DNA of 64,000 nucleotides from Marinobacter sp. es.048. GTDB taxonomy: Bacteria; Pseudomonadota; Gammaproteobacteria; Pseudomonadales; Oleiphilaceae. Of this stretch, positions 36,917 through 39,115 are shown in pieces. The position numbers were made by a program, and so were the translations under genes. Position 1 is the first letter of the stretch. The number at the start of each line of letters is the position of its first letter. The stretch covers positions 992,001 through 1,056,000 of the forward strand of contig NZ_FYFA01000001.1 of the NCBI RefSeq assembly GCF_900188435.1, given 5' to 3'. The notes below the pieces were generated by a model. It was not told the origin of the DNA. It was given only the letters and a program-made list of their open reading frames with translations, and searched no databases.

Positions 36917-37705
36917 TCAGGGCAGAAGGTCAACCCGCACTTCAAAACTCCGGTTCTCGGAGCGGCTGCTGTTTACCTGGTAGGTGATGCCACTGCGCTC
37001 CTGGCTCGAACGGGTTGCTGTGCTGCCCAGCGACACCCACTGTCCTGGCTCAACCCGCCGAATGGTGACCACCGCCTCCGTTTCATAACCGTCCAGGTTT
37101 GCCGGCTCCTCCTCGAACGAGACAATGTTCAGTTCCACCGCCTGATCAGAAATCACCTGTGGGCTGACCAAAAAACCGCTACGGGTTTCGACTTGTTGAA
37201 GGAAAGCTGCAGGATTCCGTCCGCCGCGAACGGCGACTGGAATCGTCCGGATCTGGCCCGAGGTAATATGCGCCGACTGGCCATCCTGCATAACCAGTGT
37301 TCGTTCCTGGGCGCTGCCGGTCGTGGTAATGCGGCGTTCCGCTGATATTTTAGCCTGGCCTCCGGACGCGGAAATGCCGGCGCCTGAGCGTTTGCCGCCG
37401 CTATCTGTTCTGGAGCGAACGGTGATGCGGATCTGGACTGGCGCCACGTCCAGAGTTTCGACAAGCCGTCCGATTTCGTCCAGCAAGTCTGGCTCACCGC
37501 GCACCACCAGTTGTTGGCCACGGGCGGTCACGGTCACTGGCGAGCCCTGGTAAAGCTCGCGAATTTGCACGGCCACATCGTCGCCCGGTCTGTTATCAAG
37601 CTGGTAAACGCGGGACTCCGCTTGGGCCAGAGTCTGGCTGGAAAAAAGCCCCAGCAATAGAACCAGGAAAAGCTGCGGAGGGTATCGTCGGACAAAAACG
37701 GCCAT
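36917..37705 (-). CDS. exported secretin-N-domain-like protein without a secretin barrel
   Basis: A 262-residue exported protein with signal peptide (LFLVLLLGLFSSQTLAQA). Next comes a segment like the N domains of secretins: VYQLDNRPGDDVAVQIREL, LVVRGEPDLLDEIGRLVETL, and the typical PVQIRITVR. The rest is beta-rich (GQSAHITSGQ, EAVVTIRRVEPGQWVSLG) but I see no complete secretin multimer-forming barrel. ATG at 37705 has GGGAG nearby. The frame upstream is open by chance across the DAHP synthase region. It diverges from the aromatic leader ORF. The function is unknown. Confidence 0.62.
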   Translation of the reverse strand: MAVFVRRYPPQLFLVLLLGLFSSQTLAQAESRVYQLDNRPGDDVAVQIRELYQGSPVTVTARGQQLVVRGEPDLLDEIGRLVETLDVAPVQIRITVRSRTDSGGKRSGAGISASGGQAKISAERRITTTGSAQERTLVMQDGQSAHITSGQIRTIPVAVRGGRNPAAFLQQVETRSGFLVSPQVISDQAVELNIVSFEEEPANLDGYETEAVVTIRRVEPGQWVSLGSTATRSSQERSGITYQVNSSRSENRSFEVRVDLLP

Positions 37706-37755
37706 TGAGTGCTCCCAATCCTTCCGTCGGCATTGAAAAAACTCCGACACACGGG

Positions 37756-37785
37756 TTGCCAAGGTGAAAACCAGGGGTATATATT
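37756..37785 (+). promoter_or_regulatory. candidate sigma-70 promoter for the DAHP synthase leader
   Basis: TTGCCA at 37756-37761 and TATATT at 37780-37785 are separated by 18 bases; TATATA at 37778-37783 gives a 16-base spacer. A start about 7 bases downstream would fall almost on the leader ATG at 37793, implying a leaderless or very short 5' end. The site is weak evidence by itself; its position before the leader ORF is the main support. Confidence 0.45.
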
Positions 37786-37792
37786 GAAAAGC

Positions 37793-37930
37793 ATGAAGAC
37801 GACACACGCGACCTGTCAATTGAATGTTTTGCAAGCTTTCGGCACCAAGCCGGCGGCTGCAGTCGCTGCTGTGTTTTTTTGGTGGTTTGGTTATGGCTTT
37901 TATTTTAGCCAGAGCCGGGGCCGCCCATAG
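37793..37930 (+). CDS. aromatic-rich leader peptide of DAHP synthase
   Basis: A 45-codon ORF that ends FFWWFGYGFYF-SQSRGRP. Residues 28-38 contain five Phe, two Trp and two Tyr in eleven positions. The stop TAG (37928-37930) is followed by a GC-rich hairpin and then a terminator, before a DAHP synthase gene, the first step of aromatic amino acid synthesis. This is the layout of ribosome-mediated attenuators such as trpL and pheL. The mixed Phe/Trp/Tyr composition would let all three end products be sensed. There is no good ribosome site for the ATG at 37793; translation could start later in the same frame (for example GTG 37871). The peptide itself need have no function. Confidence 0.75.
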   Translation: MKTTHATCQLNVLQAFGTKPAAAVAAVFFWWFGYGFYFSQSRGRP

Positions 37931-37957
37931 CATCTTCATCGAACGAATAACGAGGAA

Positions 37958-38031
37958 GGCAGCCCGGCAGAAAACCCAGGCTGCCACCGGACTCAAAAAG
38001 CCCCGACTGGTAGCCCAGCCGGGGTTTTTTT
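37958..38031 (+). terminator. attenuator: hairpin plus rho-independent terminator before DAHP synthase
   Basis: GGCAGCC (37958-37964) can pair with GGCTGCC (37979-37985). Then a terminator stem CCCCG-A-CTGG (38001-38010) pairs with CCAG-C-CGGGG (38015-38024), loop TAGC, followed by seven T (38025-38031). Alternative pairings exist: GCCGGG in the leader (37914-37919) with CCCGGC (37963-37968), and CGGGGC (37916-37921) with GCCCCG (38000-38005). The latter would disrupt the terminator when a ribosome stalls earlier. Which alternative operates needs folding analysis. Confidence 0.78.
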
Positions 38032-38062
38032 GATTCTGACGCAGGGAAACGGAAACACTGAC

Positions 38063-39115
38063 ATGAACATGCCCTTGAACACTGAACTGACACAACAGGA
38101 TGAGGAGTCTCCGGTCGTCCACCGACAGGAAGTGGTTCTGCCAACGCCGGCGGAGCTCAAGCAGCAGATGCCGGTGAGCGACTCTGTCCTCCGGCAGGTG
38201 GAAGAGCAGAGGCAGTCGATCCGGCGGATTTTGCAAGGTACGGACGCCAGAACCCTGATCGTGATGGGACCCTGTTCCATCCACGATGAGGTGGCTGCCC
38301 TGGAATACGGGGAGAAGCTGAAGGCGCTGGCGGATGCGGTCAGCGACCGCTTCCTGATTGTTATGCGGGCGTACCTGGAGAAACCACGAACCACCGTGGG
38401 CTGGAAAGGGCTGCTGTACGATCCCGAGCGCACTGGTGCAGGCGATCTGCATGAGGGGCTGCGTCGCTCCCGCCGCCTGCTGCTGAACCTGGCTGCCATG
38501 GGACTGCCACTGGCCACTGAAGCCCTGAGCCCATTCGCTATGGATTACCTCGGGGATCTGGTGAGCTGGACGGCTATTGGTGCTCGAACCACCGAGTCTC
38601 AGGTGCATCGGGAGATGGTCAGTGGGCTACCCATGCCGACCGGCTTCAAGAACGGCACCGATGGCGGTATCGCCGTGGCCACCAATGCCATGAAGTCGGC
38701 CTCCCATTCCCATCATCATCTTGGGGTTTCGGCCACAGGCGCGCCGGTCATGATTACCACCCGGGGGAACCCCGACACCCACCTGGTGTTGCGCGGTGGC
38801 CGCGGCATTACCAACTACGATGCGGCAAGTGTCGAGCAGGCCGTCGGCACCCTGGGAAATGCCGGCTTGTCCACGGCTGTAATGGTGGACTGCAGCCATG
38901 ACAATGCCTGCAAACAGGCCGAGCGCCAGATGGATATCGCCCGTGAGGTGATGGCCCAGCGCCGTGCCGGCAACCACCATATCCGTGGTCTGATGCTGGA
39001 AAGCTTCCTGGAGCCGGGCCGCCAGGACGACGGTGACGATCTGAGTTACGGCTGTTCGATTACCGATCCGTGTCTAGGATGGGCGCAGACGGAGGCTCTG
39101 ATCCGCTCACTGTAG
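38063..39115 (+). CDS. 3-deoxy-7-phosphoheptulonate (DAHP) synthase, class I
   Basis: This enzyme condenses PEP and erythrose 4-phosphate, the entry to the shikimate pathway. The 350-residue protein has the class I (AroF/G/H type) motifs GPCSIHD, RAYLEKPRTTVGWKG, GARTTESQ, GFKNGTDG and VDCSHDN. ATG at 38063 follows GGAAAC about eight bases upstream; a second ATG is two codons on. Which aromatic acid inhibits it cannot be told from sequence. It lies behind a leader/attenuator. Its 3' end overlaps the convergent LysE-type gene by 56 bases. Confidence 0.94.
   Translation: MNMPLNTELTQQDEESPVVHRQEVVLPTPAELKQQMPVSDSVLRQVEEQRQSIRRILQGTDARTLIVMGPCSIHDEVAALEYGEKLKALADAVSDRFLIVMRAYLEKPRTTVGWKGLLYDPERTGAGDLHEGLRRSRRLLLNLAAMGLPLATEALSPFAMDYLGDLVSWTAIGARTTESQVHREMVSGLPMPTGFKNGTDGGIAVATNAMKSASHSHHHLGVSATGAPVMITTRGNPDTHLVLRGGRGITNYDAASVEQAVGTLGNAGLSTAVMVDCSHDNACKQAERQMDIAREVMAQRRAGNHHIRGLMLESFLEPGRQDDGDDLSYGCSITDPCLGWAQTEALIRSL

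Follow-up and report, generated by a model that had tools for sequence, protein, structure and literature searches.

The DAHP synthase gene and its leader

In Marinobacter sp. es.048, a short open reading frame (ORF) lies just upstream of a gene for DAHP synthase, which is the entry to the synthesis of phenylalanine, tyrosine, and tryptophan. Both are in a 64-kb stretch of DNA that we analyzed as a whole (the window), and all positions are counted from its first nucleotide. The features that matter here are:

37756..37785, + strand: sigma-70-type promoter from a promoter scan (-35 TTGCCA at 37756-37761, -10 TATATT at 37780-37785)
37793..37930, + strand: leader peptide ORF, as read from the sequence (ATG at 37793, TAG at 37928-37930, 45 codons)
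37874..37906, + strand: control codons F28-F38, FFWWFGYGFYF (5 Phe, 2 Trp, 2 Tyr, 2 Gly)
37881..37898, + strand: segment A, an arm of the anti-antiterminator hairpin; overlaps the control codons and pairs with B
37907..37925, + strand: segment B, partner of A or, in the antiterminator, of E
37958..37985, + strand: segments C and D, a GC hairpin that separates the two switches (7 bp and 2 further pairs inside)
37995..38010, + strand: segment E, the terminator 5' arm; 38000-38010 can pair with B instead
38015..38031, + strand: segment F, the terminator 3' arm, and the T-run (seven T at 38025-38031)
38063..39115, + strand: DAHP synthase of the AroF/G/H type, from profile matches; the putatively regulated gene
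8973 to about 10460, - strand: trpE

The DAHP synthase matches TIGR00034 of NCBIfam (427.7 bits, with a cut-off of 173.2) as well as DAHP_synth_1 of Pfam. The peptide encoded by the leader ORF is MKTTHATCQLNVLQAFGTKPAAAVAAVFFWWFGYGFYFSQSRGRP, and nine of the 11 residues at F28-F38 are aromatic. Across all six frames of the window, this is the sole 11-residue stretch with at least nine aromatic residues; 27 stretches have at least six, counting overlaps and including the DAHP synthase leader. The leader thus has what is looked for in an attenuator, namely a short ORF with several codons for the end products of the pathway. Both the run within its 45-codon ORF and the order of the elements (the stop codon of the ORF, the GC hairpin, the terminator with seven T, and the ATG of DAHP synthase) are as described in the original prediction, which had been made from the bare DNA. 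The promoter TTGCCA-18-TATATT was the one match in a scan of 37300-38400; the mean for shuffled sequences was 0.3.

We did not find such a leader upstream of the second DAHP synthase of the es.048 genome (52% identical), nor an aromatic leader before pheA. In the window, trpE begins 31 nt after the preceding gene and has no Trp leader. The gene preceding trpE resembles phosphoglycolate phosphatase, as judged by eye. The divergent neighbor of the leader (36920-37705, - strand) encodes a small protein with a match to Secretin_N and a match to Secretin that is below the cut-off.

Conservation and folding of the leader in the genus

We searched 58 genomes for the locus, 37 of them from the same genus (including es.048). 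An orthologue of the DAHP synthase (at least 70% identity) was present in 36 of the 37 genus genomes, and the other one (G015) had only the paralogue. The orthologue in G027 begins at the end of a contig, which leaves 35 genus loci with upstream DNA. All 35 have the leader, with an ORF of 43-49 codons. A search of the order added four more genomes of the genus, again all with the leader, for a total of 39 of 39. The original prediction had staked itself on the leader ORF and terminator being conserved next to DAHP synthase in relatives, and at each of these 39 loci the ORF, the aromatic run, and the terminator lie beside that gene.

The leader is also constrained as a coding sequence. In an alignment of 40 leaders (the 39 from the genus and one from a sister genus), every gap spans whole codons. 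The ORF as a whole has a pN/pS of 0.47; upstream of the run the ratio is 0.54, within the run it falls to 0.19, and downstream it is 0.82. The ratios for frames +1 and +2 are 1.15 and 0.68, and both frames are interrupted by stop codons in all 40. Phe, Trp, and Tyr codons are all present in the run of every one of the 40 leaders.

The spacing of the promoter is similarly fixed. At all 39 genus loci (the sister-genus locus was left out, with too little upstream DNA), the -10 box ends 6-7 nt 5' of the leader ATG. Its sequence is TATATT at 24 loci and TATAGT at the other 15, and a -35 box resembling TTGC[CA]A lies at a spacing of 16 or 18 nt. Just one of the 39 has a Shine-Dalgarno-like tetramer before the ATG. 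This geometry suggests that the es.048 transcript starts on the leader ATG or within about 3 bases of it. Because the -10 box is so close to the ATG, translation of the ORF probably begins with few or no nucleotides 5' of the start codon. The suggestion that the promoter leaves almost no 5' leader was part of the original prediction, and the conserved near-leaderless geometry bears it out.

As RNA, the region 37793-38036 is more stable than its own shuffles (z of -3.74). The fold of 37878-37930, with A paired to B, has a free energy of -23.2 kcal/mol. Both sequence and folding predict an intrinsic terminator between the leader ORF and DAHP synthase: CCCCG A CTGG pairs with CCAG C CGGGG, giving 9 bp around an A.C mismatch, in a stem at about 38000-38025 that is extended by G.U and A-U pairs. 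The alternative pairing that had been proposed, 37916-37921 with 38000-38005, does exist in the folds, and it extends further (37908-37912 with 38007-38011).

We then folded the es.048 transcript with a ribosome on it. The A-site was placed codon by codon, and the RNA was covered to 12 nt past the first base of that codon. The transcript ended before the 3' arm of the terminator (F), and B:E pairing was scored at the core of E (38000-38005). With the A-site at codons 28-38, which are the aromatic run, the probability of B:E was 0.73-1.00. It was 0.35 at codon 27, 0.00 at codons 21-26 and at codons 39-46 (stop included), and 0.0002 without a ribosome. The original claim was that stalling at aromatic codons frees the alternative pairing; in this model of es.048, the antiterminator indeed forms at the aromatic codons and is absent at the stop.

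For the genus as a whole, we aligned 35 loci by their distance to the stop codon and used footprint edges of 10, 12, and 14 nt. With the 12-nt edge, the mean probability of B:E was 0.55-0.61 at W31-G35; in es.048, these positions include a single codon for each of Trp, Phe, and Tyr. The aromatic codons on either side had means of 0.20-0.29. With the 10-nt edge, the effective stretch came one codon later (0.25 at W31 and 0.50 at F36), and with the 14-nt edge it shifted by about a codon (0.32 at both G35 and F36). Given where the effective stretch falls with the 12- or 14-nt edge, its most effective part therefore holds one codon each for Trp, Phe, and Tyr. At the stop codon, the mean was 0 with all three edges. 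B:E reached at least 0.3 within the run at 31 of the 35 loci (12-nt edge), and there was little B:E at the other four (L012, L029, L030, and L035). Three loci (L017, L019, and L037) also formed B:E at the first codons after the run.

When the complete es.048 transcript was folded at equilibrium, the terminator formed with a probability of 1.00 in every state that we tried. The switch must therefore be kinetic, with the antiterminator trapped during transcription. Classical attenuators are generally held to switch kinetically. A shuffle control sets B:E apart from chance only modestly: among 300 dinucleotide shuffles of B, 14 matched or surpassed the actual sequence in pairing with E, and for 70 the probability was above 0.5.

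Across the alignment, 98.5% of the cells for A:B, C:D, and E:F together are paired, as compared with at most 61.5% in slid controls, and 90.2% for B:E, as compared with at most 51.8%; slid controls favor a structure that was derived from one of the aligned sequences. The nine pairs of the C:D hairpin are paired in 100% of cells, with no double changes among 38 distinct sequences, and the E:F helix is paired in 98.8%. Just one of 41 pairs, which is in E:F, has two double changes, and 181 of 500 shuffles reached as high a covariation score as the alignment. Within B:E there are no double changes, and 30 of the 38 sequences lack one of the 11 pairs (37917/38004). The original prediction would have counted both a conserved run of aromatic codons and a stem with covarying bases in relatives as support. 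The run is there at all 39 genus loci; with so little variation in the element, almost no covarying bases are seen.

Related leaders and the Rfam P15 family

Rfam catalogs P15 (RF00627) as an sRNA gene of Pseudomonas. With cmscan, the es.048 leader gave a weak full-length match to P15 (37869-38025, 22.8 bits, E of 0.0071). The cut-off is 70 bits, so the es.048 leader is not a member of the family and is alike in place and design only. Other Rfam matches in the window, such as SNORA77, sar, and His_leader (on the other strand), were far below their cut-offs, and we took them as chance.

What P15 and the es.048 leader have in common is their place before DAHP synthase, a similar codon run, and a hairpin and terminator. 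At an E value of 0.01, RF00627 matched 10 of 369 genomes of the class; es.048 was not among them under the stricter filters of this search. In five of the 10, the match is directly before DAHP synthase and contains an aromatic leader. At L057, L059, L061, L062, and L063, no DAHP synthase was matched downstream, and we took these five as chance.

With a search pattern that covers the core and terminator of P15 and fixes the codons Gly-Tyr-Trp-Phe in advance, we found at least 119 loci (L065-L183). Among the 119 matches listed, 103 carry a Pseudomonas title, and the others include Stutzerimonas, Halopseudomonas, Alcanivorax, Alloalcanivorax, Denitrificimonas, Salinisphaera, and Pantoea. Examples of P15-type leaders before DAHP synthase outside Pseudomonas are L174 (Salinisphaera), L102 (Alcanivorax), and L171 (Alloalcanivorax). 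Another locus, L166, has a Pseudomonas-type P15 leader and DAHP synthase on a contig titled Pantoea sp. Ap-967, and this organism name may be wrong.

A DAHP synthase starts 55-350 nt past the terminator 5' arm in 111 of the 119 matches listed (75 of 80 in a first pass). In the remaining eight, the sequence ends 16-492 nt past that arm. All eight of the pattern loci that we tested with cmscan exceed the P15 cut-off. In one genus group, presumed to be Pseudomonas, P15 was over the cut-off in 25 of 25 genomes, and all 10 loci that we fetched from this group have DAHP synthase downstream. Because DAHP synthase is directly downstream at P15 loci, P15 is very probably an attenuated leader of DAHP synthase, which would give this Rfam family a testable function. 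The accessible part of an earlier paper states that P15 shares synteny with the TPP riboswitch of Listeria and suggests a riboswitch (PMC2527527). In the literature that we searched, which covered few subscription journals and parts of the listings, we found no report of P15 as an aromatic attenuator or of any leader of this kind in Pseudomonas and its relatives.

In the search of the order, we read the best 60 upstream regions by score, and 33 of them have such a leader. These include 5/5 regions from family f1, 3/3 from f217, 8/8 from f20, 1/1 from f7, 8/10 from f222, and 8/12 from f24. Both misses in f222 are second DAHP synthase copies; of the four misses in f24, two are second copies and two are not. 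We did not recognize a leader in any of the 10 regions from f207 or in 11 from other families. Several of the f207 and other-family regions have stretches with 5 or 6 aromatic residues, which we took as chance. In a set of 20 upstream regions, the leader was present in five from the genus and in L039 and L040, and was not seen in the other 13. The leaders of f7, f24, and f217, which were found without the P15 pattern and read by eye, hold Phe, Trp, and Tyr. A short ORF at L239 (genome G630, family f23), ..MLRIHRFFSAFYYAFI, has 6 of 11 aromatic residues and lies some 125 nt upstream of where the DAHP synthase match begins; it could be a chance stretch or an independent aromatic leader of another family.

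P15-type leaders differ from that of es.048 in their Shine-Dalgarno start, their lack of B:E, a suggested relay of B:C and D:E, and a second ORF. An in-frame start behind a Shine-Dalgarno tetramer is present at 78 of 80 loci, taken from the 119 listed, by a loose test with no chance control. On the es.048 plan, P15-type leaders mostly do not fold into B:E, and a model with B:E alone failed on them. Instead, folds of five P15-type loci suggest a relay in which B, once freed, forms a helix with C, and D forms one with E. In the genus of es.048, B:C, on which such a relay would depend, is seen in some members only, and without D:E. Across 80 P15-type loci, we scored the sequestering of E at A-site positions counted from the GGG of GGG-TAT-TGG. 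The mean was 0.76-0.82 at positions between 9 nt upstream and 9 nt downstream of this GGG, and 0.25-0.39 at 15-24 nt past it. When the A-site held the stop codon, the mean was 0.60, and one codon further on it was 0.78, which argues against a clean switch in the relay model. At 22 of the 80 loci, sequestering of E exceeds its value at the stop by more than 0.3, and at none is it below by that much. An alignment of the P15 terminator (40 of the at least 119 loci) has some covariation, with both sides changed in 7 of 40 rows at one pair and in 2 of 40 at another.

A second ORF with W[RK]F lies between the terminator and the gene at 107 of the 111 P15-type loci listed (no chance control). In a first pass, such a reading frame was seen at 73 of 75 loci. 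L054, L078, and L060 are examples of P15-type loci with the second ORF. At the loci listed, the second ORF mostly reads MNYATYYRYD..AWRF[ST].LRSGQPAASDR or MT..YY..YRYDWRFS, and it is often rich in Tyr. It looks like a second aromatic leader and is a candidate tandem leader peptide. ORFs related to it are also present in f24 and at two f222 loci. The match at L113 is short and dubious. In es.048, there are 31 nt between the T-run and DAHP synthase, with no second WRF ORF.

A proposed attenuator for three amino acids

We propose that the es.048 leader controls DAHP synthase by ribosome-mediated transcription attenuation, with a probability of roughly 0.83. This reading builds on the ORF, the promoter match, the terminator, the conservation, the in-frame constraint, and the match, within the fold model, between the control codons and the antiterminating positions. 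For the transcript start, the stalling, the kinetics, and the action of each of the three amino acids alone, we infer the following. RNA polymerase would start at the leader ATG or a few bases from it, and a ribosome would translate the leader. With enough charged tRNA-Phe, tRNA-Trp, and tRNA-Tyr, the ribosome would pass the run, reach the stop codon, and cover B (37907-37925); E would then pair with F, and transcription would end near 38031. When charged tRNA for any one of the three amino acids runs low, the ribosome would wait in the run, melt A:B, and free B, which could pair with E as it emerges. The terminator would then not form in time, and DAHP synthase would be transcribed. Without translation, A:B would form, and so would the terminator. 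If this is correct, a single leader that reads three charged tRNAs would serve as an OR-gate for the shared step.

It may be that the leader is an attenuator that depends in the cell on just one or two of the three, such as Trp and Phe at W31-F32, with the rest of the codons as bystanders. We consider this a real possibility, although we lean against it. In the genus model, W31-G35 are effective, and the Phe, Trp, and Tyr codons on either side reach means of just 0.20-0.29 with the 12-nt edge. There is also a precedent: the accessible part of a study of Corynebacterium glutamicum reports that its F-Y-F leader, AroR, responds to Phe and not to Tyr (PMC11802643). However, codons for all three amino acids are kept in 40 of 40 genus-type runs. 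All three are also in the 119 P15-type runs listed (the pattern fixed one codon for each in advance) and in the leaders of f7, f24, and f217, which were read by eye and without that pattern.

Another explanation is that the nascent peptide itself stalls the ribosome. It would then be an arrest peptide similar to TnaC, and the signal would be a free aromatic amino acid instead of the codon supply. The N-terminal part, MKTTHA.CQLNVLQAFG, is largely conserved across the genus (pN/pS of 0.54), and many distant leaders share GY[GWY]F followed by S. However, the N-terminus is not recognizably shared with the leaders of other families, and the residues after the run, which fall in B, have a pN/pS of 0.82, so we view an arrest peptide as quite improbable. 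The short transcript might also be a trans-acting small RNA, with the link to DAHP synthase being secondary, given that RF00627 lists P15 as an sRNA gene and that, from what is accessible of PMC7298713, the terminated leader rnTrpL of Sinorhizobium meliloti can act in trans. This seems very improbable: besides the short distance to DAHP synthase (55-350 nt past the terminator 5' arm in 111 of 119 matches listed, and 10 of 10 fetched loci with the gene downstream), a trans role for P15 was already doubted in the accessible part of PMC2527527. Finally, the aromatic run could have arisen by chance, in a leader that is not translated and that ends in an unremarkable terminator. Stretches with at least six of 11 aromatic residues do occur 27 times in the 64 kb (counting overlaps and this locus), and a few upstream regions in which no leader was recognized reach 5 or 6. 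But the conservation, the in-frame constraint, and the repeated occurrence at DAHP synthase genes make a chance origin hardly credible.

Taking the attenuator reading together with the P15-type loci, there may be one old F/W/Y attenuator at the first committed step of aromatic synthesis, in several families of the order of es.048 and in Salinisphaera, with P15 as its terminated leader. The codon run would have been kept while the RNA was rebuilt: direct B:E and a leaderless start in the genus of es.048, and a his-like relay of six segments with a Shine-Dalgarno start in Pseudomonas. At Pseudomonas-type loci, the second aromatic leader (..YYRY..WRF[ST]..) would add another checkpoint downstream of the terminator. 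We give this joint scenario an even chance. If the attenuator reading is correct, it would point to a regulatory site that is conserved widely among Pseudomonas and its relatives, and two RNA designs that serve a similar codon sensor could be compared.

Neshat, in 2014, reportedly found the aroR transcript of C. glutamicum to be leaderless. Attenuation of a DAHP synthase by an aromatic leader peptide is already known from this bacterium, where, according to the accessible parts of three papers, the aroR leader peptide (Phe-Tyr-Phe) attenuates aroF (PMC4046766, PMC11802643, PMC7356990). By analogy, this is the closest precedent of the es.048 leader: in both, a DAHP synthase gene is preceded by a leader peptide that contains aromatic codons and is subject to transcription attenuation, which in es.048 is predicted. 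AroR is actinobacterial and its motif lacks a Trp codon, whereas the es.048 run has nine aromatic codons for all three amino acids.

The trp and pheA attenuators of E. coli likewise have end-product codons in the leader peptide, competing stems, and a terminator, as described in the accessible part of PMC11802643. They respond to one amino acid each; the es.048 leader would respond to three, at a shared first step, and has no Shine-Dalgarno sequence. The E. coli trp and pheA leaders have a ribosome binding site. In S. meliloti, the 5' end of rnTrpL starts with the ATG of trpL, according to the accessible part of PMC7298713. The start that we propose for es.048 is of the same kind, and the S. 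meliloti leader differs in that it precedes the trpE(G) operon. The S. meliloti leader is not known to sense an amino acid other than Trp. If our reading is correct, es.048 would provide a further attenuator that starts without a ribosome binding site. For Shewanella aroF, the accessible part of PMC2659441 has the entry "Attenuator sensing tyr-tRNA," which cites an E. coli study of 1980. As in es.048, this is a suggested attenuator at DAHP synthase, and it differs in sensing Tyr only.
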